NCBI GenBank assembly: GCA_024694965.1
Contig: JAILJC010000212.1
Location: 1-64,000, forward strand
DNA: 64,000 bases
From: Lachnospiraceae bacterium
GTDB lineage: Bacteria; Bacillota; Clostridia; Lachnospirales; Lachnospiraceae
Reading direction: 5' to 3'
Shown: one piece after another, positions 28,761 through 63,651 of the stretch
How positions within the stretch are numbered: position 1 is the stretch's first letter
How the letters are laid out: every line of letters begins with the position of its first letter
Translations under genes and position numbers: made by a program
The notes under the pieces: generated by a model
Told to the model about the DNA's origin: nothing
Databases searched by the model: none
The model's input: the letters and a program-made list of their open reading frames with translations, nothing else

Positions 28761-28883
28761 TTAAAAACCCTGGTACAGGATCGTTAAGTTGGAAGCCTGA
28801 AAAACGGCATAGATCACGACAGCCGCTTTAAATCCCATCCATACTATCTTTAAAATGTCTTTAATGTCAAACCTCTCATCCAT
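28761..28883 (-). CDS. DltX-like 40-residue membrane microprotein
   Basis: A short gene read directly from the sequence: ATG at 28883, stop TAA at 28763-28761, AGGGG ribosome-binding site about 8 bases upstream. The product starts MDERFDIKDILK, has one hydrophobic helix (about residues 13-29) and ends in LTILYQGF. DltX of teichoic-acid D-alanylation is likewise about 50 residues, has one helix and a C-terminal FxYxxF-type motif whose Tyr carries the acyl group between DltB and DltD. Here Ile replaces the first Phe. It sits directly downstream of the MBOAT gene, where such a partner is expected. The MBOAT of this cluster lacks the motif. Function is inferred. Confidence 0.72.
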   Translation of the reverse strand: MDERFDIKDILKIVWMGFKAAVVIYAVFQASNLTILYQGF

Positions 28884-28921
28884 TCTGTTTTCCCCTGTTT
28901 AAAATTCCGTTTTATCTTAAA

Positions 28922-30136
28922 CTATCGACCCGTAAAAAGCGACATCACAGGATACCCGGTAAAAGTGAATGTTAGGCAGATATACCCCCATGTCACGATA
29001 CGTGCAACGGTAATGACCACCGGATTATTTTCATACTTTTTGTTCTTTTCTTTACCGAGCCATTTTTTTCTTTTCGTTTTCCAAAGCGTCGCCACTACTA
29101 TACCAAGTCCCTGAAAAAGACCGTACATGACGTAATCCATGGTCGTTCCGTGCCAGATACCGGCAACCAGAAAAGTAACAAACAGCGAGATACACTGAGC
29201 AAGCAGGATCTTCTTTTTTAAAGGCACCGAGAGGAGCCATTTGTAAAACGGGGTAAAGATATAATCCCTGATCCATTCGGATAAGGTTATATGATGCCTG
29301 TTCCAGAACTCCACTACGTTTACCGACATATAAGGACGGTTGAAGTTTTCATGTATCTTCATTCCGGAAAGTCCTGCCGCACCTATGACGATATCACAAT
29401 AACCCGAAAAATTAAAATAAATATACCAGCAATTGAAAAATGCAAAAATACAAAATGCACCGGCGGCTTTTAAAAACCCGTCATGGTCTTTTAATCCGTC
29501 AAACCAGTATTTAGCCCACGAATCCAGGATGGCGGATATCACATAAACCTTAACATATCCGTTTATCACCCTGTTAATATCATCCAGTAATTCCTTTTTT
29601 GTTATCGGTATAAAACCTGTTTCTTCCCCGCTTCCGTAAAAGTCATCAACGAATTCCCTGTATCTTAATATCGGGCCTGCCATCAGGGTATAAAAATCCA
29701 ATATATAGTTCAGGTAATCGATACAGCCGAGGGAATATCCTTCTTCCTTAAGGCTTTTATACTGCATGATGTAGTCGATCTCCCTGAACAGAAAATACGA
29801 AAGCCCGAGGATCTTAAACAGGAATATCTCCGGAAGGTGTAACAGCGAGAAAACAAAACCGTATTTTGCAAGATACACATAGATGACAACTATGCCTGCG
29901 ATCATAAACGGCTTAAGCTTCTCCCTGCTGCCCCAAAAGTGCATCAGCAAATACGGCAGCATTACCCAGATGACAGTGATCACCCACTGCAGGAGTGAAT
30001 GGGAGGCAGCCGTAATGACCAATACATTAAGTGCAAGAAACACTGTCTTCCTTAAACGTGATCTGTATCTTAAAAGAAACGGAGCTACAATGATAAGGCA
30101 TGCGAAAAACAAGGATTTTGTCGACAATTCGATCAT
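28922..30136 (-). CDS. MBOAT-family O-acyltransferase (DltB-like), cluster 1
   Basis: A 404-residue polytopic membrane O-acyltransferase. The family His residues are visible in NRHHITLSEWIRDYIFTP and in the invariant AGIWHGTTMDY. In Dlt-type systems this channel passes an acyl group from a carrier protein thioester in the cytoplasm to the outer face. It begins 1 base after the carrier-protein stop, with an AGGGA ribosome-binding site inside the end of that gene. Unlike the MBOAT at 58502, its C-terminus (SLFTGR) has no FxYxxF motif; the separate microprotein downstream seems to provide it. The acyl group and the acceptor polymer are unknown. Confidence 0.92.
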   Translation of the reverse strand: MIELSTKSLFFACLIIVAPFLLRYRSRLRKTVFLALNVLVITAASHSLLQWVITVIWVMLPYLLMHFWGSREKLKPFMIAGIVVIYVYLAKYGFVFSLLHLPEIFLFKILGLSYFLFREIDYIMQYKSLKEEGYSLGCIDYLNYILDFYTLMAGPILRYREFVDDFYGSGEETGFIPITKKELLDDINRVINGYVKVYVISAILDSWAKYWFDGLKDHDGFLKAAGAFCIFAFFNCWYIYFNFSGYCDIVIGAAGLSGMKIHENFNRPYMSVNVVEFWNRHHITLSEWIRDYIFTPFYKWLLSVPLKKKILLAQCISLFVTFLVAGIWHGTTMDYVMYGLFQGLGIVVATLWKTKRKKWLGKEKNKKYENNPVVITVARIVTWGYICLTFTFTGYPVMSLFTGR

Positions 30137-30137
30137 T

Positions 30138-30377
30138 TTATTTTCCCTGGATCTTATTATCGATCAGCTTGATAAAGTCACCGATGTTCTTTAAGGTATT
30201 TGTTTCCGCGATGGAAAACTTTATATCAAACTCATCCTGAACAGCTACGATAAGTACCACATGTGTAAGGGAATCCCATCCTTCAATGTCGTCCGCCGTT
30301 GTCTCATTGCTTATAACTATATCCTCATCATCAAACACATCCCTAAAAACTTCCTGTAATCTTTCCAGCGTACTCAT
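30138..30377 (-). CDS. Acyl carrier protein, cluster 1
   Basis: A 79-residue carrier protein with the phosphopantetheine site GWDSLTHVVLI (Ser36). Its acidic helical character is normal. The start is fixed by GGAGG 7 bases upstream and overlaps the end of the SGNH gene by 35 bases. It should carry the acyl group handed to the MBOAT encoded 1 base downstream. No adenylating or acyl-ACP ligase gene is in this cluster, so the loading enzyme must be elsewhere; the nearest candidate is at 54515. Confidence 0.93.
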   Translation of the reverse strand: MSTLERLQEVFRDVFDDEDIVISNETTADDIEGWDSLTHVVLIVAVQDEFDIKFSIAETNTLKNIGDFIKLIDNKIQGK

Positions 30378-31437
30378 TTATATCCTCCATAATCCTGTTT
30401 GTATATCTTATCCCCGCATCATATCCTAAATGTACTCCGTCTGCATATTCATTCTGCGCATAATCATCCCGGTAATCCACATATACGATCCCGTTTTCAT
30501 CAAGGAACGGTATCAGCCTGTTATCCACATAATCCTTATATGCATGTCCAAAGTCCGTGTTTCCCAGGTTTGGCGGCATGGGAGACAGTTCAACGATAAG
30601 ATGGCAGTTTTTATCTATATCCTTTATAAGGCCTTCCGTTATATCCTTCATGTCATCCGCTATATCAAGAGTTTCGGCTTCAGCCTCCGGACTGAAATAA
30701 TTATTCCTGAAATTTCCCGGGATCTTCAGATCGTCATAATTCCCGTTCATTTCAATCCCAAACTGTGCCGCTCTTTCGGTAAGACCGGTACCGTGGCTGC
30801 CTTTTAATACCTGATCCATATAATCCATAAAAAGCTCCCGGACATTCTGGATCCTTATAAGGTAAGTATTAAACGCATAAAGCGGGGCCAGTATCTTCGG
30901 CCCTTTTCTGATATCGATCCTGTTTTGTTCCCCTTCTTCATCCAAAACCTTGTATTTGCCCCATTTATCAAGGATCGTTTCGGTAATGGTGATCGATGGG
31001 TTCCGAAAAGTGGAAAAAGATATCTCCAGTTTGATGATATCCTCATCCCCTATAAGATCTTCCCCTGACAGCAGTTTAAACAATATCTGATCCGACCTGT
31101 AACATCCGTTCCCGCATGTCATAAAACGATAGGAGTAAGAATCATCATTCCCGGCGATCTCACCATGAAACGGAACAACACATACCGAAGAACCTATGGA
31201 TATCACACTTCTTTCATCCTTTTTGATCCTTGACATTTCTTCGATAAAACGGTTGTCTACAATATGATATCCCTCATCATACCACGGAGACGAAATACCG
31301 GTTGCATTTTCCCTGTATAGTTTTAGATAATCGGTGTTTAATCGATCTGTCAGATATATGGATAACTGTCCTGCCAGAATTATAAATAAGACGGCCAGCC
31401 CCAAAACCGCCGCAACTGCCGCAAATACTCTCTTCAT
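30343..31437 (-). CDS. SGNH-hydrolase-like membrane-anchored protein (DltD position), cluster 1
   Basis: One N-terminal signal-anchor helix (about residues 3-25) followed by an extracellular domain. The block I nucleophile is in SVISIGSSVCVV and the block V Asp/His in YADGVHLGYDAG, as in SGNH/GDSL enzymes and DltD-like transferases. It probably completes acyl transfer to the outer polymer or edits it. I start it at the ATG at 31437; a GTG at 31491 would add 18 residues that do not look like a signal. The ribosome-binding site is weak. First gene of the cluster 1 operon. Confidence 0.82.
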   Translation of the reverse strand: MKRVFAAVAAVLGLAVLFIILAGQLSIYLTDRLNTDYLKLYRENATGISSPWYDEGYHIVDNRFIEEMSRIKKDERSVISIGSSVCVVPFHGEIAGNDDSYSYRFMTCGNGCYRSDQILFKLLSGEDLIGDEDIIKLEISFSTFRNPSITITETILDKWGKYKVLDEEGEQNRIDIRKGPKILAPLYAFNTYLIRIQNVRELFMDYMDQVLKGSHGTGLTERAAQFGIEMNGNYDDLKIPGNFRNNYFSPEAEAETLDIADDMKDITEGLIKDIDKNCHLIVELSPMPPNLGNTDFGHAYKDYVDNRLIPFLDENGIVYVDYRDDYAQNEYADGVHLGYDAGIRYTNRIMEDINEYAGKITGSF

Positions 31438-31472
31438 CTTCTTTAGTTTACAACTCCCAACCGGTAATAGCC

Positions 31473-31502
31473 CCGGGCTGTATACGATCACCCTTCGCCC
31501 GG
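31473..31502. repeat. GC-rich inverted repeat in leader of cluster 1
   Basis: CCGGGC (31473-31478) and GCCCGG (31497-31502) form a 6-bp inverted repeat with an 18-base loop in the otherwise AT-rich 5' region of the SGNH gene. It could shape the leader RNA; no known riboswitch was recognised. Confidence 0.4.
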
Positions 31503-54514: not shown

Positions 54515-56056
54515 ATGACAAACATACTTGATATGCTCGAAAGAGCGGCAGATAAATACGGTGATAAGACGGCATATTCGGATCCGGATAAGGAAATAAG
54601 CTTTTCGGATCTTATGCTAAGTGCAAGGCGCACGGCATCCTGTATGCTTAAAAAAGCTGATGGGCAGGCATTCGGGCCGGGGACTGCGGTGGCGTTTTAC
54701 ATGGAAAAGAGTGTTGATGCGCTTATCGTTATGTTTGCTTCCATGTACCTTGGTTCATTTTATAGTTTTATCGATATAAGACAGACCAAAAACCGGGCCG
54801 AGAGCATATTATCGGTACTCGATCCGGTATTTATAATAACCGATGATGCAAACAGTGAGGCTTTAAATGCTTTTGAATTAAGCTCTGATACAGAAAGCCG
54901 TATCCTTAACATCGGTAAGCTTCTTAAGGAAGCAGGGGAAACCGGGGTTGATGAAGATGCGCTTTTGAAACGAAGGAGCGGTTTTTTTGATAAGATGCCT
55001 CTGTATGTGAATTTTACAAGCGGCAGCACGGGAGTTCCCAAGGGTGTTGTAGTGGGACATGCATCGGTTATCGGGTTTATTAGTGAGTTTACTTCGGTGT
55101 TTGGCATAACAAGCGAGGATGTAATCGCAAATCAGGCGCCGTTTGACTTTGACGTATCCGTTAAGGACATATACAGCGGCCTTTATACGGGAGCAAGGAC
55201 AGCGCTTATACCGAGGGAATATTTCTCAAATCCGTCTGTTTTAATGGATTATCTTGCGGATAACAGGGTCACGACCCTTATCTGGGCAGTATCGGCCATG
55301 TGCTTTGTATCGATAATGAACGGACTTGAATACAAAACGCCGGATACGGTCAAAAGAGTTATGTTCTCAGGGGAACTCATGCCTGTAAAACAACTTAATA
55401 AATGGAGGAAATTTATTCCCGATGCCATGTACGTCAATTTGTACGGGCCTACCGAGATAACTTGCAACTGCACTTATCATATATTAAACCGGGAATATGA
55501 AAAGGATGAAGTGATCCCGATCGGGATACCGTTTAAGAATGAGAAGGTTTTCCTGCTTGATGAAAATGACAATAAGGTAGAATCACCCGGAACCGAAGGA
55601 GAAATATGTGTATCGGGTTCCTGTCTGGCACTCGGTTATTATAAGGAACCGGAAAAAACGGCGGAGGTTTTTGTCCAGAATCCTTTAAATACAAGGTTTA
55701 TCGAGCAGATCTATAGGACCGGAGATCTTGGAAAATACGGAGAAGACGGCCTTCTGTATTATACCTCCCGTAAGGATTTCCAGATAAAGCATATGGGACA
55801 GCGGATAGAGCTTAATGATATCGATGTTTCCGCCATGTCTGTAGACGGAGTTTCAAGGGCTGTCAGTATATATGACGACAAACGTAAGAAGATAATCCTG
55901 TTTTATACAGGGGAAACTGATAAGGATGTTCTGGCTGAAAGCCTTCATAAGAAGCTTCCACCGTTCATGCTCCCGTCAAAGACAGTAAAGCTAGAGGAAA
56001 TGCCGCTTAACAAGAACGGAAAAATAGACAGAAAAGCTCTGGAAGGGCTTAAATAG
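54515..56056 (+). CDS. DltA-like amino-acid adenylating enzyme, cluster 2
   Basis: A 513-residue adenylation enzyme of the DltA/NRPS type that activates an amino acid with ATP and loads it on a carrier protein. Motifs: A3 NFTSGSTGVPKGVVVGH, A4 APFDFDVSVKDIY, A5 NLYGPTEIT, A7 YRTGDLGKYGEDG, A10 NKNGKIDRKAL with the catalytic Lys. It resembles D-alanine ligases, but the region where DltA keeps a D-Ala-selective Cys (in WAVSAMCFVSIMN here) seems to differ, so the substrate may not be D-Ala. That alignment is from memory. First gene of a three-gene set with a PLP decarboxylase and a carrier protein. Confidence 0.88.
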   Translation: MTNILDMLERAADKYGDKTAYSDPDKEISFSDLMLSARRTASCMLKKADGQAFGPGTAVAFYMEKSVDALIVMFASMYLGSFYSFIDIRQTKNRAESILSVLDPVFIITDDANSEALNAFELSSDTESRILNIGKLLKEAGETGVDEDALLKRRSGFFDKMPLYVNFTSGSTGVPKGVVVGHASVIGFISEFTSVFGITSEDVIANQAPFDFDVSVKDIYSGLYTGARTALIPREYFSNPSVLMDYLADNRVTTLIWAVSAMCFVSIMNGLEYKTPDTVKRVMFSGELMPVKQLNKWRKFIPDAMYVNLYGPTEITCNCTYHILNREYEKDEVIPIGIPFKNEKVFLLDENDNKVESPGTEGEICVSGSCLALGYYKEPEKTAEVFVQNPLNTRFIEQIYRTGDLGKYGEDGLLYYTSRKDFQIKHMGQRIELNDIDVSAMSVDGVSRAVSIYDDKRKKIILFYTGETDKDVLAESLHKKLPPFMLPSKTVKLEEMPLNKNGKIDRKALEGLK

Positions 56057-56087: not shown

Positions 56088-57281
56088 ATGATCGAAGAAG
56101 CGCTTAAAAACATAATAAAAGAATATCCAACCCCTCTGTTTCTGTTTGATGCGGATGAATTAAGAAGCAGGGCGTTTAAGATTAAGGAAATACTTAATGC
56201 AAACGGAAATAAAACAGGACTTTGCTATTCCATAAAGGCAAATCCGTTCTTAATCCCGCAGCTTACGGATGTGGTGGATAAGTTCGAGGTATGTTCGCCT
56301 GGAGAGCTTTCAATCTGCATGTCATACAATGTAAAGTCGGAAATGATCATCTATTCGGGAGTGCATAAGGAAGAGGAAGATATAACCGAGGCAGTAAAAT
56401 TCGGAGTAGGTATACTTACGGCAGAGTCTGTACGGCATTACGGATTGATCGATAAGGTAGCCAAAAAGCTTGAAAAAAAGGTAAATATAATTCTTAGGTT
56501 ATCGTCAAAAAGCCAGTTTGGCATGTCGATCGATGATATCCGGCAAATTCTTAAGGAAAATGCAGGCAATAAATACGTAAATATCGAAGGTCTCCACTAT
56601 TTTGCGGGAACACAGCGTGTAAAGCTTAAGCACCAGAGGGAAGAACTTATGATGCTTAAGGATGTTTTTTCCGGGTTACGGGAGGAATTCGGCATGGAAT
56701 TACGTTTGTTCGAATACGGCCCGGGCCTTGCATTTCCTTATTTTACGGACGAAGACAGGAGCGATACGCTTAAACCCCTTAAGGAGCTCGCCGATGATCT
56801 TTATACGGCAGCAGGCTTCAGCTCCCTTACCGTTGAAATGGGGCGTTTCCTGGCAAGCAGCTGCGGATACTATCTAACAGGGGTGTGTGATGTTAAAAGA
56901 TCGCATGACAATATCTGGTGCATCCTTGACGGAGGGATTAATCACCTTAATTACCTCGGACAAATGATGGGAATGAAAACACCTGTTATAATAACACTTC
57001 CGAATAAGGACAGCACTGAATTAAATAACACCTTTGGATTGGCGGAAAATCAGACCTTGTGTGGATCCTTGTGCACGACCAACGATGTTATTTTAAGAAG
57101 TTTTAAAGACAGGCGCCTTGAGAGCGGAGACGTCCTTGTATTTTGCAATACAGGTGCTTATACCATAACCGAAGGACTGAATCTTTTCTTAAGCAGGAAC
57201 ATGCCGGTTGTCCTTATTAAAAGAGATGGTATAATATCAAAGGTAAGGGATGTTACCCCGACCTGGAAACTTAATTCCTAG
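56088..57281 (+). CDS. Fold-type III PLP decarboxylase (LysA/ODC superfamily), cluster 2
   Basis: A 397-residue PLP enzyme of the diaminopimelate/ornithine decarboxylase group. The PLP Lys is in CYSIKANP; other family points are CSPGELSICMS, EGLHYFAGTQR (HxGSQ position), EMGRFLASSCGYYL (phosphate/R motif), the active-site Cys in LCGSLCTTND and NTGAYTITEGLNLF. The dltA-like gene is 31 bases upstream and the carrier protein gene 14 bases downstream. In butirosin biosynthesis the related BtrK decarboxylates glutamate bound to carrier BtrI; a similar on-carrier decarboxylation is inferred here. It is not likely to be the housekeeping LysA, given this company. Confidence 0.85.
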   Translation: MIEEALKNIIKEYPTPLFLFDADELRSRAFKIKEILNANGNKTGLCYSIKANPFLIPQLTDVVDKFEVCSPGELSICMSYNVKSEMIIYSGVHKEEEDITEAVKFGVGILTAESVRHYGLIDKVAKKLEKKVNIILRLSSKSQFGMSIDDIRQILKENAGNKYVNIEGLHYFAGTQRVKLKHQREELMMLKDVFSGLREEFGMELRLFEYGPGLAFPYFTDEDRSDTLKPLKELADDLYTAAGFSSLTVEMGRFLASSCGYYLTGVCDVKRSHDNIWCILDGGINHLNYLGQMMGMKTPVIITLPNKDSTELNNTFGLAENQTLCGSLCTTNDVILRSFKDRRLESGDVLVFCNTGAYTITEGLNLFLSRNMPVVLIKRDGIISKVRDVTPTWKLNS

Positions 57282-57295
57282 GAGGAATACGTATT

Positions 57296-57517
57296 ATGGA
57301 AGAATTACTGGAATTACTTAAAGATGTAAGGGACGATGTTGATTTTGAGAATGCGCAGGATCTTATAGACGGTAAGATATTGAGCTCTTTTGATATAATA
57401 CAGATCATAAGCGTGATCGATGAGGAGTATGACGTTGCAGTTCCTGCAACGGAGATAATCCCTGCTAACTTCAACAGCGCAAAGGCCATCTATGATATGA
57501 TACAGAGGCTTAAATAG
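57296..57517 (+). CDS. DltC-like acyl carrier protein, cluster 2
   Basis: A 73-residue carrier protein with the phosphopantetheine site in KILSSFDIIQII (probably Ser31, aligned with the Ser of DltC LDSF). AGGAGG precedes the ATG. It should receive the aminoacyl group from the adenylating enzyme encoded two genes upstream and present it to the MBOAT encoded on the other strand. It differs from the cluster 1 carrier (DSL type), so the two systems may use different acyl groups. Confidence 0.88.
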   Translation: MEELLELLKDVRDDVDFENAQDLIDGKILSSFDIIQIISVIDEEYDVAVPATEIIPANFNSAKAIYDMIQRLK

Positions 57518-57526
57518 GAACAGGAT

Positions 57527-58447
57527 CTAAAGCAGGCCCCTTGATCTTAGAAGATCCACGAGCTTTTCGGTATAGACGGTACGTCCCTTAGAGGACATAT
57601 GGCTCATATCCTCATAAAAATCGGGTTCGTGGTTGTCAAAATCGATATCATGCGCATATACGCATTCCACATCATATTCATTCATAAGATCGACAAAGTA
57701 TTTGTGGTATTCAACATATACCGGATCGTCCTCGAGCCTGTAATAATGGGGACTTTCGAGGAATATAAAGGGCTGTGAATCCCTTTTGCATTTTTCGATC
57801 ACTTCACGGACCGCATCAGCCTGTGCATCGATAAGAACGGAATCACTTATATCAAACTGTTCGTTTTCTAAAAATTCCTTTCCGGAACTCTTTGTATCAT
57901 CGGTTTTTGCACCTTTATAATACCTGGTCGAATAAAAACGTTCGGTCACCGGATAAGTTATAAGGTCATCCATTCCCGAGGTAACGAAGTATTCATACAT
58001 CACCGGAAGGCCTGCATTTCCCTCGTTTTTGAGCTTACCCCACAAAGCCCTCTTTCCATCAAACGACAGATCCCAGATAACCCTAGAGTCGGAAAGCTTT
58101 ACTTCCTCTGTGAGCATCAGGGGATCAAGTTCAAACACCATAAGTCCGTAACCGGCTTTCGAGCGTTTCTTTATCTCATCATACTGAATGGAGGTTGCGG
58201 CATACTGATTTCCTCCATAGGAAATGATGAAGGCTCTGTCATTTACGGCTTCATCCAGAGTATGGATGTTAAGGTTGCTCCTGAAGGTGGAAGAACCTAT
58301 AAACAAAAGGTCGAGGTCACCTTCCTTTATGGCCGCCCTTATCCCTCTGTTTCCGATAGGGATCTCACACGAATATACATTTTTAAAGGCTACGGCAGCG
58401 GTTATAACGATAAGTGCCGTAAGCAGGGATATCACAGTTTTTTTCAT
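57527..58447 (-). CDS. SGNH-hydrolase-like anchored protein (DltD position), cluster 2
   Basis: An N-terminal signal-anchor (about residues 3-22) followed by an extracellular SGNH-type domain: block I LLFIGSSTFRSNL (Ser) and block V YEDMSHMSSKG (Asp/His). The ATG at 58447 with GGGGTG upstream is preferred over a TTG 15 bases earlier. It ends 9 bases from the convergent carrier-protein gene and starts 54 bases after the MBOAT. DltD in D-alanylation does the final transfer to the polymer; the same role is inferred here. Confidence 0.83.
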   Translation of the reverse strand: MKKTVISLLTALIVITAAVAFKNVYSCEIPIGNRGIRAAIKEGDLDLLFIGSSTFRSNLNIHTLDEAVNDRAFIISYGGNQYAATSIQYDEIKKRSKAGYGLMVFELDPLMLTEEVKLSDSRVIWDLSFDGKRALWGKLKNEGNAGLPVMYEYFVTSGMDDLITYPVTERFYSTRYYKGAKTDDTKSSGKEFLENEQFDISDSVLIDAQADAVREVIEKCKRDSQPFIFLESPHYYRLEDDPVYVEYHKYFVDLMNEYDVECVYAHDIDFDNHEPDFYEDMSHMSSKGRTVYTEKLVDLLRSRGLL

Positions 58448-58501
58448 AAAACACCCCGACAAACAACTTATTTGTGCATGTTAATGCGGTTTTTCCCGGT
58501 A

Positions 58502-59929
58502 TCAGAATGCCTGGTACATGAAATTTGACTGACCCGCGACCCCAAACAGGGCCATTACAACGAGCATTCCCGTAGCATACAGGTATCTGTGCCGGGAAAA
58601 GGCGTTTTCATTTTTTTCTTTTAACAGTTCAACAATGAACAGTACCGTCATCAGCACGGTGAGTATGATAACGGAGGCCGCAGCCTGATTTCCGTTCCCA
58701 AAGGGTGTAAGTGAAGCCATTATTGAACCGCCGTTTATCTTTGTTGTTGTGAAGATACGCTTATATATCATAAACGCATCGGAAAGACTGTGTGCCCTAA
58801 ACATCACTTCGCCGAGCAGCACGATTAAGAAAGTCCGTATTGTCGTAAATATCTTTATAAACACGTTATCATCATTCCAGTGTATCGCTTTTTTGAGTTT
58901 CTTCATATATGACATTGAACAAACGGAGAAAAGCATGATGATCGCAAAATAAACACCCCAGCCGATATATACATCTTCAGCTCCGTGCCAGATACCGGTG
59001 ATTATCCATACAAGGATAAGAGGAAATACCGTACGGAGGTTACCCTTTTTGGCTTTGGGAAAGATCTTTCCGAGGAACTTGGAAGCTTTTCTGTTCCAGC
59101 CTGATGTTACGGCCGGCATCATAAGGTGCTCTTTGAACCATTCGTTAAGGGAGATATGCCATCTTCTCCAGTATTCCTGAATATTCCTTGAAAAATACGG
59201 GCGCTTGAAGTTTTCGGTAAGCTTTATACCGAGCATGTAGGAAATACCGCAGACTATATCCATATAACCCGAAAAATCGGCATAAAGCTCGATCGCATAG
59301 AAAAACACTGCGATAATTAAGGTAAGTCCCGCATAATTTCCGGGTGAAGAAAATACGGTATCTACATAATAGGTAAGCCGGCCGGCTATTACGAGCTTTT
59401 TGAAAAGACCCTTTATTACCCTGTAACCGCCTGATTTTATATTGTTAAGATCAAAAGCGTGAGGAGATAAAAGCTGATCCTTCATGTTACCGTATGTACC
59501 GATGGGGCCCTGTGTTATCTGGGGAAAGTAGGAGATAAAAAGGGCATAATGCAGCAGGTTTTTCTCCGGTTCGATCTTTTTTCCCATACAGTCATGCGCA
59601 TATCCCAGTGTCATAAATGTGTAAAAGGAAATGCCCAGAGGCACGATCAGCGAATGTATATTGAAATAAATGCTGTACCTGAAAACGATAAGTATACCGA
59701 GGTTTATGATAAGAGTCAGTATCCACCGGACCTTTGAGGGTTTAAGCATCAGGTACCAGGTGGAGACAATGGATACTGCTATAAACACTATATAAACGGG
59801 GCGGACCCAGGCATAGAAAACAATACTGCCAAGAAGCAGCACCATCCATTGGTATTCCGGTTTCACCCTGTAATAAACAATGAGCAGAATGATTATAAAT
59901 ATAAGGAAAGAAATTGAAATAAGGCTCAT
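58502..59929 (-). CDS. MBOAT-family acyltransferase with C-terminal FxYxxF motif, cluster 2
   Basis: A 475-residue polytopic O-acyltransferase (DltB/AlgI-like). Family His residues are in RRWHISLNEWFKEHL and ITGIWHGAED. After a last membrane helix (LYATGMLVVMALFGVAG) the protein ends exactly in NFMYQAF, i.e. the FxYxxF motif that in DltX carries the acyl group and that also ends many AlgI-type MBOATs. So the acceptor segment that is a separate microprotein in cluster 1 is fused here. AAGGA precedes the ATG, and a consensus-like promoter lies upstream. Confidence 0.93.
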   Translation of the reverse strand: MSLISISFLIFIIILLIVYYRVKPEYQWMVLLLGSIVFYAWVRPVYIVFIAVSIVSTWYLMLKPSKVRWILTLIINLGILIVFRYSIYFNIHSLIVPLGISFYTFMTLGYAHDCMGKKIEPEKNLLHYALFISYFPQITQGPIGTYGNMKDQLLSPHAFDLNNIKSGGYRVIKGLFKKLVIAGRLTYYVDTVFSSPGNYAGLTLIIAVFFYAIELYADFSGYMDIVCGISYMLGIKLTENFKRPYFSRNIQEYWRRWHISLNEWFKEHLMMPAVTSGWNRKASKFLGKIFPKAKKGNLRTVFPLILVWIITGIWHGAEDVYIGWGVYFAIIMLFSVCSMSYMKKLKKAIHWNDDNVFIKIFTTIRTFLIVLLGEVMFRAHSLSDAFMIYKRIFTTTKINGGSIMASLTPFGNGNQAAASVIILTVLMTVLFIVELLKEKNENAFSRHRYLYATGMLVVMALFGVAGQSNFMYQAF

Positions 59930-60065: not shown

Positions 60066-62651
60066 ATGCGGGAATTCTTATATAAAAAAAGAAATATATT
60101 GTGCCCGTTACTGGCATTTTTGATCCCTGTTGCCGTAATGGTATTTATCTGCATTCTGTCAGGCTTTTATCCCTTCGGGGATACATCCATCCTGATGGCA
60201 GATATGAGATATCAGTTCGTGGATTATTTCGGGTACATGAAGAAGATATTCTTTTCGAACGATACCCTGTTTTACAGCTTTTCAAAGACGCTTGGCGGCG
60301 ATATGGCGGGGCTTGAGGCCTATTACTGCAATAACCCGTTTCTTCTGTTTCTCCTGTTTTTACCCAACAATATGCTCCCCGGCGGAATACTTGTAATGAT
60401 GATAGTAATGCTCGGTCTTATCGGGCTTTGCTTTAATATCTTCCTTACAGAGGTATACGGCAGCAGGTATACAACCCTTGTTTTTTCAACAGCTTATGCA
60501 TTCATGGGCTATCTTATGGGGTATTTCAACTGCGTTCATTATTTCTTTAATGTGATGATGCTTCCTCTTGTAATGCTTGGTATATACAGGATCATAAAAA
60601 GCGGAAAGATAAGCATTCTTTATATCATTTCGCAGGCTCTTTCCGTTTTTTCCAGTTATTATATAGGATATATGATATGCATCTTTTCGGTATGCTTCTT
60701 TATATATGAGTATTTCACGCTTTATACCGACATAAAGAGCGTGAAGAATATAAAAAAGCATTTAAAGCCCGTATGGATCTTCATATCTACCTCAATACTT
60801 GCCGCAATGTTATCGGCGGTCAGCCTCCTTTGCTCCGTGATATCTTTAAGGGAACAGAGCAGCAGGAAGCATATTCCGATATCACTTAAGGGAAATTTCA
60901 ATATAATAGACTTTTTCTCCGGCTTCTATTCAAATGTATTTAACGGAAACGTATCCGATGACGGCCTGCCGCTTATTTATTCCGGTGCCATTGCCCTAAT
61001 ATTCATAATGATCTTCTATCTTGCCGGATCGATAACAAAAAGGGAGAAGTTTATATCTGCAGGGGTATTTGTTTTTCTGATCCTGGGGTTTTATGTGGAT
61101 ATCCTTAATGTAGCATGGCACGGGTTCTCATACCCGATAGGCTTTCCATACAGGAATTCATTTCTTCTTAGTTTTTGGGTGTTATTTTTAGCTTACAAGT
61201 GTTTCCTGAAACCCGGTGAAATAAAGGCAAAGCAGGTGATCATACCGTTATTCATATGTGTTATTTATTCGTTGTACGCTGCTGTTATTTTAAGAAGCAA
61301 AATAGGATTACGGCCGATATATATTACCTGTTTTTATGTGGCTTTCATATATCTTCTTATATATATATACAAAAAAACGTCATTTAAAAAATATGTAATG
61401 CCTATGTTTTTGATGCTGGCTTTGGTAGATGCATCTTATAATGCATATGTTTCGGTCAATGCATATTTTCCGGAGAAAGAAGAAGATAAAAGCATAAGCA
61501 TCGGAGCATACAGGGACTTTGTTGATGAGACATCCGCCATCGTGGATCACATTAATAATGAAGACAGTGGGTTTTACCGTATTGAGAAGCTTTACAGGCG
61601 CAGCAATAACGATGCGATGCTCATAGGATACAACGGAATGTCGCACTTTTCCTCGTGTGAAGCTGAGCAGACCATGAGGTTTATGGGTACGCTTGGCTTC
61701 AGGGATAACGGAAACTGGGCATTTTACGGCGAAGGAAGCTCTGCATTTGCCGATTGTTTGTTGGGTATGAAATACCTGCTGTCCCAGTACAACGAAACAC
61801 CAAAGCCGTATGAGCCTTTCTACAGATATAACGAAAAATTTGTATTCCTTAATCCCTATGCGCTTCCGTTATGCTTTACGATGCAGAAAAGCTGCACTGA
61901 TCTAAAACCTGAAGGATATGACAAATTTTCCTATCAAAATGCACTGGCGGGAAGTTTTGGATATGAAGGAGACGATATTTATACTAAGGTGGAAGATGTG
62001 GAGGTTACCCTTGATAACCTGAACAGGGAGGGAAATACATATACGGTTATTGATGATAATAAAGAAGCCTGCATTCGATTAAGCTTTATCAACAATAGCA
62101 CGGATTTCATCTATATGTATTATGATGCAGACGCTCTTCAGGAAGCAGATATAGTAGTAAACGGCCTTTTAAAACAGCCTTATTTTACATCATACGGATG
62201 GAGCATAAGGGAGCTGGGCTATTATCCTGAGGGAGAGTCCGTAGAGGTACTTATATATCCCGGGCAAGATGAGATAACCCTTAACGGATTTGAATTCTAT
62301 TATGAAAACAAAGCTGCCATCGCCGATTGGTATGAGTGTGCAACAAAAGACAAATGTGAGCTTACAAAGGTAACATCTTCGCATCTTACCGGAAAAGCTT
62401 CTTCATCCGGAGATAAAATGCTTGTTTTTTCGTTCCCTTATGATAATACATGGCAGGTATTCGTTGACGGAAAGAAAGTCGAGAATAAAAAAGCAATAGA
62501 CGGCCTTCTGGCAGTCGATCTTGAAAAAGGAGATCACAGTGTTGAACTTAAATATACGCCCCGCGGTTTTGTGATCGGCCTTCCCGTAAGTATAGCCGGT
62601 ATCATTTCTTTATTTATAATAGTGTTTTATAAAAAACGCCGGGGTTGTTGA
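60066..62651 (+). CDS. YfhO-family GT-C membrane protein
   Basis: An 861-residue polytopic protein of the YfhO family: about 12-14 membrane helices in the first 430 residues, an early outer loop with SILMADMRYQFVDYFGYMKK, and a large extracellular C-terminal domain before a last helix and basic tail. In Bacillus and Listeria YfhO proteins move a sugar from undecaprenyl phosphate to lipoteichoic acid or related polymers. It is followed after 55 bases by a GtrB/CsbB-type glycosyltransferase, the expected partner that makes the lipid-linked sugar. The sugar and polymer here are unknown. Confidence 0.9.
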   Translation: MREFLYKKRNILCPLLAFLIPVAVMVFICILSGFYPFGDTSILMADMRYQFVDYFGYMKKIFFSNDTLFYSFSKTLGGDMAGLEAYYCNNPFLLFLLFLPNNMLPGGILVMMIVMLGLIGLCFNIFLTEVYGSRYTTLVFSTAYAFMGYLMGYFNCVHYFFNVMMLPLVMLGIYRIIKSGKISILYIISQALSVFSSYYIGYMICIFSVCFFIYEYFTLYTDIKSVKNIKKHLKPVWIFISTSILAAMLSAVSLLCSVISLREQSSRKHIPISLKGNFNIIDFFSGFYSNVFNGNVSDDGLPLIYSGAIALIFIMIFYLAGSITKREKFISAGVFVFLILGFYVDILNVAWHGFSYPIGFPYRNSFLLSFWVLFLAYKCFLKPGEIKAKQVIIPLFICVIYSLYAAVILRSKIGLRPIYITCFYVAFIYLLIYIYKKTSFKKYVMPMFLMLALVDASYNAYVSVNAYFPEKEEDKSISIGAYRDFVDETSAIVDHINNEDSGFYRIEKLYRRSNNDAMLIGYNGMSHFSSCEAEQTMRFMGTLGFRDNGNWAFYGEGSSAFADCLLGMKYLLSQYNETPKPYEPFYRYNEKFVFLNPYALPLCFTMQKSCTDLKPEGYDKFSYQNALAGSFGYEGDDIYTKVEDVEVTLDNLNREGNTYTVIDDNKEACIRLSFINNSTDFIYMYYDADALQEADIVVNGLLKQPYFTSYGWSIRELGYYPEGESVEVLIYPGQDEITLNGFEFYYENKAAIADWYECATKDKCELTKVTSSHLTGKASSSGDKMLVFSFPYDNTWQVFVDGKKVENKKAIDGLLAVDLEKGDHSVELKYTPRGFVIGLPVSIAGIISLFIIVFYKKRRGC

Positions 62652-62706
62652 TTCTTAACTAAAATGCTATTATATGTTTGTTATCTTTTTCCTAGCGGAG
62701 GTTGAA

Positions 62707-63651
62707 ATGGAAGATTACAAATTATCGGTGGTAGTCCCCGTATATAATGAAGAAAACGGAATAAAACCTTTTCTTGAAAGGACAGAAAAGGTTATAGATG
62801 ACTTGGGCTGCGATTATGAGATCATCTTCAGCCTGGATCCGTCAACAGACGATACTTATAATGTAATAAAAGGAGAAATGAAGCGTAATCCGCATATAAA
62901 GCTCATTACCATGAGCCGCAGGTTCAGGCAGGCAGCCGCAACAATGGCAGGAGTGCTTAACTGTACAGGCGATATCTGCGTGGTCATAGATGTGGATCTT
63001 CAGGACCCGCCGGAAGTCATCACCGAGCTTGTCGCAAAGTGGAAGGAAGGTTATGACGTGGTATATGCCCAGCGTATAGACAGGCAGGGCGAGACAAAGT
63101 TAAGAAAGCTTATCGATATGACCGCATACAGGGTTATCAATTTCCTGTCGGATGTTGAAATACCAGTAGATACTTCCGATTTCCGCCTTATAAACAGGAG
63201 GGTTATTGAAGAGATCCGCAAGATGCCCGAAACAAACATGTTCTTCCGCGGAATGGTATCTTATGTCGGATTTAAACAGGCTGCGGTCCGCTTTCACCGT
63301 GAAGCAAGGGAGGCTGATGACAGTAAATACAACCGCTTCTTTGGTGAATTCAGGATGGGCTTCCACGGGATATTCTGTTTTTCGAGCAAGCCGCTTGAAT
63401 ATGTTACCTTCCTTGGCGGTTTCATGACAGCATTCGGAGTGTTCCTTTCCGTTATATGGTTTTTACAGAACGCATTTTGTACCCGCGCTAAAAAAGCGGT
63501 ATCGGGAGTTACGGCGCTTATCTGGTTTATCGGAGGCCTTAACGTTTTCGTATCGGGACTGCTTGGAGAATACATTACAAGGATTTATGACGACGTAAAA
63601 GGAAGGCAGCGTTTCATCATTGATGAGTTCGATGAAAACAAGGGCGAATGA
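62707..63651 (+). CDS. GtrB/CsbB-type family 2 glycosyltransferase
   Basis: A 314-residue polyprenyl-phosphate sugar transferase. The GT-A domain begins LSVVVPVYNEENGI, with the donor-binding DVDLQDPPEVI and a later DTSDFRLINRRVI. Two C-terminal membrane helices (about residues 228-250 and 265-288) and a basic end RIYDDVKGRQRFII are typical of GtrB, CsbB and DPM1-like enzymes. The ATG at 62707 follows GGAGG. No GtcA-type flippase gene is seen beside it. Last gene before a clear terminator. Confidence 0.93.
   Translation: MEDYKLSVVVPVYNEENGIKPFLERTEKVIDDLGCDYEIIFSLDPSTDDTYNVIKGEMKRNPHIKLITMSRRFRQAAATMAGVLNCTGDICVVIDVDLQDPPEVITELVAKWKEGYDVVYAQRIDRQGETKLRKLIDMTAYRVINFLSDVEIPVDTSDFRLINRRVIEEIRKMPETNMFFRGMVSYVGFKQAAVRFHREAREADDSKYNRFFGEFRMGFHGIFCFSSKPLEYVTFLGGFMTAFGVFLSVIWFLQNAFCTRAKKAVSGVTALIWFIGGLNVFVSGLLGEYITRIYDDVKGRQRFIIDEFDENKGE

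Follow-up and report, generated by a model that had tools for sequence, protein, structure and literature searches.

Gene content of cluster 2

The window, by which we mean the whole stretch of 64,000 nucleotides analysed here, derives from a Lachnospiraceae-like, 88%-complete genome that encodes 11 MBOATs. Two of these belong to gene clusters of the window that are referred to as cluster 1 and cluster 2. Cluster 2 comprises the following features:

54515-56056, plus strand: DltA-like adenylation enzyme, predicted aminoacyl-carrier ligase (PF00501)
56088-57281, plus strand: PLP-dependent decarboxylase of the BtrK type, with PLP Lys50 (56235-56237) and loop Cys329 (57072-57074)
57296-57517, plus strand: carrier protein of 73 aa, weak DltC match, phosphopantetheine Ser31 (57386-57388)
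57527-58462, minus strand: SGNH/DltD-like protein, predicted to be an extracytoplasmic acyltransferase, with a single TM helix at its N-terminus (AlphaFold2 pLDDT 92.9)
58502-59929, minus strand: MBOAT O-acyltransferase of 475 aa (PF03062, E 2e-16)
58505-58522, minus strand: terminal acyl-shuttle hexapeptide FMYQAF of the MBOAT, read directly from the sequence
58544-58690, minus strand: two C-terminal helices of the MBOAT (residues 414-439 and 448-462) outside the DltB-like core (AlphaFold2)

The ligase, decarboxylase and carrier genes on the one hand and the MBOAT and SGNH genes on the other are convergent in the window and do not form one operon. Directly beyond the MBOAT, positions 60066-63651 encode a YfhO-family membrane protein and a PgfS-like glycosyltransferase, for which a link to the acceptor glycan is possible.

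The MBOAT and its SGNH partner

The MBOAT terminates in FGVAGQSNFMYQAF* with its stop codon at 58502-58504, and the predicted acceptor Tyr472 is encoded at 58514-58516. The NFMYQAF end that the earlier note had reported is thus present in the frame 58502-59929 on the minus strand (...QSNFMYQAF). Profile, alignment and fold match all identify the protein as an MBOAT with its catalytic histidine: His315 (58985-58987) and His258 (59156-59158) are invariant in alignments of relatives, and the best solved fold match is DltB (6bug, TM 0.65/0.74). Homology to DltB stops near residue 378. In the AlphaFold2 model (mean pLDDT 88.3), the hexapeptide is predicted to sit on a flexible tail, corresponding to the low-confidence residues 463-475, past two helices that are absent from DltB. 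A helical extension in front of the motif had been proposed before and is borne out by the model, which contains two helices instead of the single membrane helix envisaged. The protein consequently displays both the two extra helices and the FxYxxF ending of fused-shuttle MBOATs.

The adjacent SGNH gene more likely starts at the ATG at 58447. A Pfam search with its product, the DltD family included, gave no match, and we base its identity on the fold search, in which DltD (6pfx, E 1.3e-5) was the top match of the model and PatB was also found. The predicted catalytic residues are Ser58 (58289-58291), Asp285 and His288 (57599-57601), of which Ser58 in a GxS motif and His288 in a DxxH motif are invariant in relatives. 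Cluster 2 therefore places an SGNH partner with a DltD fold next to the tailed MBOAT.

Conservation of the C-terminal tail

For analysing the tail independently of the motif, 125 MBOATs were selected solely by HMM score and length. Every one of the 124 full-length tailed members of this set terminates in Y-x-x-[FY], which argues that the motif is not a chance occurrence, and the sole exception is the MBOAT of cluster 1. By location, 92 of the 124 are encoded near a decarboxylase, 5 near a carrier only and 27 near neither. A set of 32 relatives from decarboxylase loci was likewise chosen without regard to the motif; past residue 325, no column of it except Tyr472 is at least 97% conserved. The closest orthologues (68-85% identity) end in GQSNFMYQAF, GQSSFMYQQF and similar sequences; the first Phe of the hexapeptide is looser, with Leu, Met or Pro in some proteins, and the final residue is Phe or Tyr. 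The Tyr is also invariant in a larger alignment, but the rows of that alignment were picked with the motif and its invariance is partly by construction, so that we rely on the motif-blind sets. According to the earlier note, a lack of conservation of the terminal motif in orthologues would have refuted its reading, and the invariant Tyr leaves that reading standing. Terminal hexapeptides of the FxYxxF type are established acyl-Tyr shuttles for DltX-like and PatA-like ends (PMC12148441). Taken at the level of sequence, these data support the view that the fused motif acts as an acyl shuttle.

The window contains the separate and the fused form of the shuttle side by side, as cluster 1 combines a motif-less MBOAT with a microprotein ending in ILYQGF:

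28761-28883, minus strand: DltX-like membrane microprotein of 40 aa, ending in ILYQGF
28922-30136, minus strand: MBOAT without terminal motif, grouping with DltB in the tree (support 99)
30138-30377, minus strand: carrier protein
30343-31491, minus strand: SGNH-like protein without Pfam match

No ligase was found beside cluster 1 (28761-31491), and no strong DltA match was found in the source genome. A canonical Dlt operon that served as control likewise encodes a separate DltX-like frame, ending in PGFTYAEF, beside a tail-less DltB. No such frame was detected in cluster 2 or in 118 decarboxylase loci, which agrees with the proposal that cluster 2 is complete without a separate microprotein. 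Among the ten other MBOATs of the source genome, nine end in the same type of hexapeptide and are included in the 124 tailed proteins above, and the tenth is the motif-less protein of cluster 1.

For eight of these nine fused MBOATs, no carrier was found nearby. The remaining one, which ends in FIYGAF, is encoded on another contig together with a ligase, a carrier and an SGNH-like protein, and this locus has no decarboxylase. A further contig of the genome contains an NRPS-like frame of 3095 aa with three adenylation domains.

A conserved five-gene module

Comparison of loci reveals a conserved module of five genes in Lachnospiraceae, Oscillospiraceae, Erysipelotrichaceae and Coriobacteriia, mostly organised as one co-directional operon. 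The usual order on one strand is ligase, decarboxylase, carrier, MBOAT and SGNH protein, while the flanks are unrelated and variable; flanking genes were considered as a pointer to the acceptor polymer and rejected for this reason. When the family was sampled, the decarboxylase was found at E <= 1e-60 in 44 of 250 genomes. At least 584 relatives were recovered in a scan of species genomes, and the 80 best loci belong to Lachnospiraceae (Butyrivibrio, Roseburia, Lachnospira), Eubacterium ramulus, Gemmiger, Erysipelotrichaceae, Slackia, Olsenella, one Treponema MAG and others. The decarboxylase is adjoined by the ligase in 108 and by the carrier in 98 of the 118 distinct loci. In 72 loci both flanks are at least 5.5 kb long; among these, the ligase is present in 67, the carrier in 63 and the MBOAT in 61, and the other 11 have no MBOAT nearby.

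Several loci deviate from this arrangement. Six contain a second ligase subtype with the pocket IARWxSQ[AG]S, in which the usual amino-binding Asp is missing; the carrier is located between ligase and decarboxylase in most of them, and the MBOAT tail, where seen, is mostly FVYMQF. This subtype may carry another acyl group. Four other loci (L188, L190, L196 and L197) encode two full-length tailed MBOATs per set of ligase, decarboxylase and carrier, which suggests that one donor serves several acceptors. In the Treponema MAG, ligase, decarboxylase and carrier are present and no MBOAT lies within the 11 kb examined.

Ligase, decarboxylase and carrier

The ligase pocket reads DVKWxS[LV]CN in 98 of 105 linked relatives, one Ile at the seventh position counted in, and the minor type accounts for 6 of the 105. 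The pocket is unlike that of DltA at most positions, and the corresponding segments of a DltA-type ligase from the locus set differ (FDLSVM, FCGE, YGPTETTVC). Such a near-constant, non-DltA pocket argues for one predicted substrate other than D-Ala. In beta-amino-acid ligases such as VinN, the loop after YGPTE is one residue shorter (PMC11253843), whereas in the cluster 2 ligase it has the same length as in NRPS domains and DltA. A VinN-like ligase with beta-aspartyl activation was rejected on this ground, which is why aspartate and glutamate are treated here as no more than possible substrates. Lys217 was also considered, as a marker of the decarboxylase-associated subtype, and rejected, because it is also present in some ligases from decarboxylase-less loci (L047 and L064).

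The closest solved relative of the decarboxylase is BtrK (2j66/7ru7, E 3e-30). Its catalytic residues are invariant among relatives and the PLP Lys and loop Cys are intact. TIGR03099 is its best NCBIfam match, although far under the cut-off. The specificity loop contains CT as in BtrK, not the CE of LysA, and the LysA insert is absent; the score against the curated LysA model (160.9 versus 297.9 bits) is below the cut-off. In the carrier protein, Ser31 is conserved in relatives.

Proposed pathway and alternative explanations

We consider it reasonably probable that cluster 2 is a self-contained, carrier-fed system for envelope acylation, in which a decarboxylated amino-acyl group is delivered via the fused Tyr. 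The DltA-like ligase would charge the carrier with an amino acid that has a second carboxylate, and the BtrK-like enzyme would decarboxylate this carrier-bound amino acid. The resulting amino-acyl thioester may be beta-alanyl or gamma-aminobutyryl (GABA). That the decarboxylase acts on the carrier is suggested by gene linkage. The MBOAT would then transfer this acyl group across the membrane to Tyr472 in its fused tail. From there, the serine of the SGNH protein with the DltD fold would take it over, and this protein would finally esterify a surface polymer. Sequence, fold and comparison of loci establish the tail, the catalytic residues, the two partner proteins and the conserved gene set, whereas we infer the donor, the acyl group, the polymer and the order of these reactions.

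The earlier note mentions neither the literature view that fused-motif MBOATs are acyl-CoA users, which makes a carrier together with a fused motif unusual, nor that the adjacent decarboxylase speaks against plain D-alanylation. In the main competing explanation, MBOAT and SGNH protein are an ordinary PatA/PatB-like O-acetyltransferase pair using acetyl-CoA, while ligase, decarboxylase and carrier serve another pathway. The convergent arrangement in the window, the use of acetyl-CoA by characterised fused-motif MBOATs (PMC12148441) and the eight further fused MBOATs of this genome near which no carrier was found all favour it. Phylogeny speaks on both sides: the window MBOAT belongs to a nine-member clade (support 100) that joins carrier-less MBOATs on a long branch (support 93), a placement that keeps this explanation alive for the window MBOAT, but all nine members come from decarboxylase loci. 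Since the five genes also form a single co-directional operon in most relatives and the MBOAT is retained in most well-flanked loci, we regard the acetyl-CoA explanation as unlikely.

Plain D-alanylation, with a DltX fused to DltB and the decarboxylase as a passenger, would account for the resemblance of ligase, MBOAT and SGNH protein to their Dlt counterparts. Against it, the ligase and the MBOAT miss the DltA and DltB equivalog cut-offs by far (258.4 versus 559.85 bits and 149.5 versus 375 bits, respectively), the ligase pocket is different, and the decarboxylase with its invariant catalytic residues is a regular neighbour of the ligase, which makes this explanation quite improbable. Slightly more improbable still is that the decarboxylase is the diaminopimelate decarboxylase (LysA) of the cell and supplies lysine, perhaps as the acyl group. 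It is the sole LysA-family match in the incomplete source genome, but a separate, higher-scoring LysA match exists in 25 of 25 related genomes tested. This, together with the CT motif, led us to reject the assignment, and the missing insert and the kinship with BtrK point in the same direction.

Relation to known systems

A fused shuttle by itself is already known: in PatA, the acetyl group has been demonstrated on the Tyr of the fused MBOAT tail, and the same paper states that, Dlt apart, MBOAT-SGNH systems have no carrier protein, evidently because they use acyl-CoA (PMC12148441). What is new in cluster 2 are its surroundings. It shares with PatA/PatB and similar pairs the terminal FxYxxF on two extra helices and the separate SGNH partner, but differs from these reportedly carrier-less, acyl-CoA-using systems by its linked ligase, carrier and decarboxylase; at the level of genes, the carrier found beside most decarboxylases departs from the carrier-less pattern of fused-shuttle MBOATs. 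With DltABCDX it has ligase, carrier, MBOAT, DltD-fold protein and a Tyr shuttle motif in common, whereas its shuttle is fused, DltX is missing, a decarboxylase is added, the ligase pocket is different and the DltA and DltB cut-offs are failed. As the features of DltA, DltB and DltX are not found, we place the system with the MBOAT-SGNH kind and not with Dlt.

Decarboxylation on a carrier has precedents in BtrK, the glutamyl-carrier (glutamyl-ACP) decarboxylase of butirosin (PMC7857480), and in VinN/VinL/VinO of vicenistatin (PMC11284099). BtrK/BtrI and VinN/VinL/VinO resemble cluster 2 in that a carrier-loaded amino acid is decarboxylated by a PLP enzyme, which in BtrK has an alanine-racemase fold, but they feed secondary metabolites, while in cluster 2 the carrier is accompanied by an export acyltransferase; the cluster 2 ligase also differs from VinN in its loop, as described above. 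The exosortase-A-associated ligase and decarboxylase (TIGR03098/TIGR03099) represent the same two enzyme types, and cluster 2 scores far under their cut-offs. We found no description of the combination of carrier, fused tail and decarboxylase in the open-licence papers that were searched.

Implications

On balance, the evidence leaves it about evenly poised whether cluster 2 represents a third class of envelope acylation that is widespread in gut bacteria, being carrier-fed like Dlt, using a PatA-like fused shuttle and supplying a surface polymer with an amino-acyl group that is produced by decarboxylation on the carrier, such as beta-alanyl or GABA. If this is true, the published split between systems with a carrier and separate DltX and systems with acyl-CoA and a fused tail would not hold generally, and a surface ester with positive charge would have gone unrecognised in many gut Bacillota and Coriobacteriia. 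D-Ala esters influence charge, resistance to peptides and sensing by the host, and an amine located further from the ester than in D-Ala would alter charge and ester stability.
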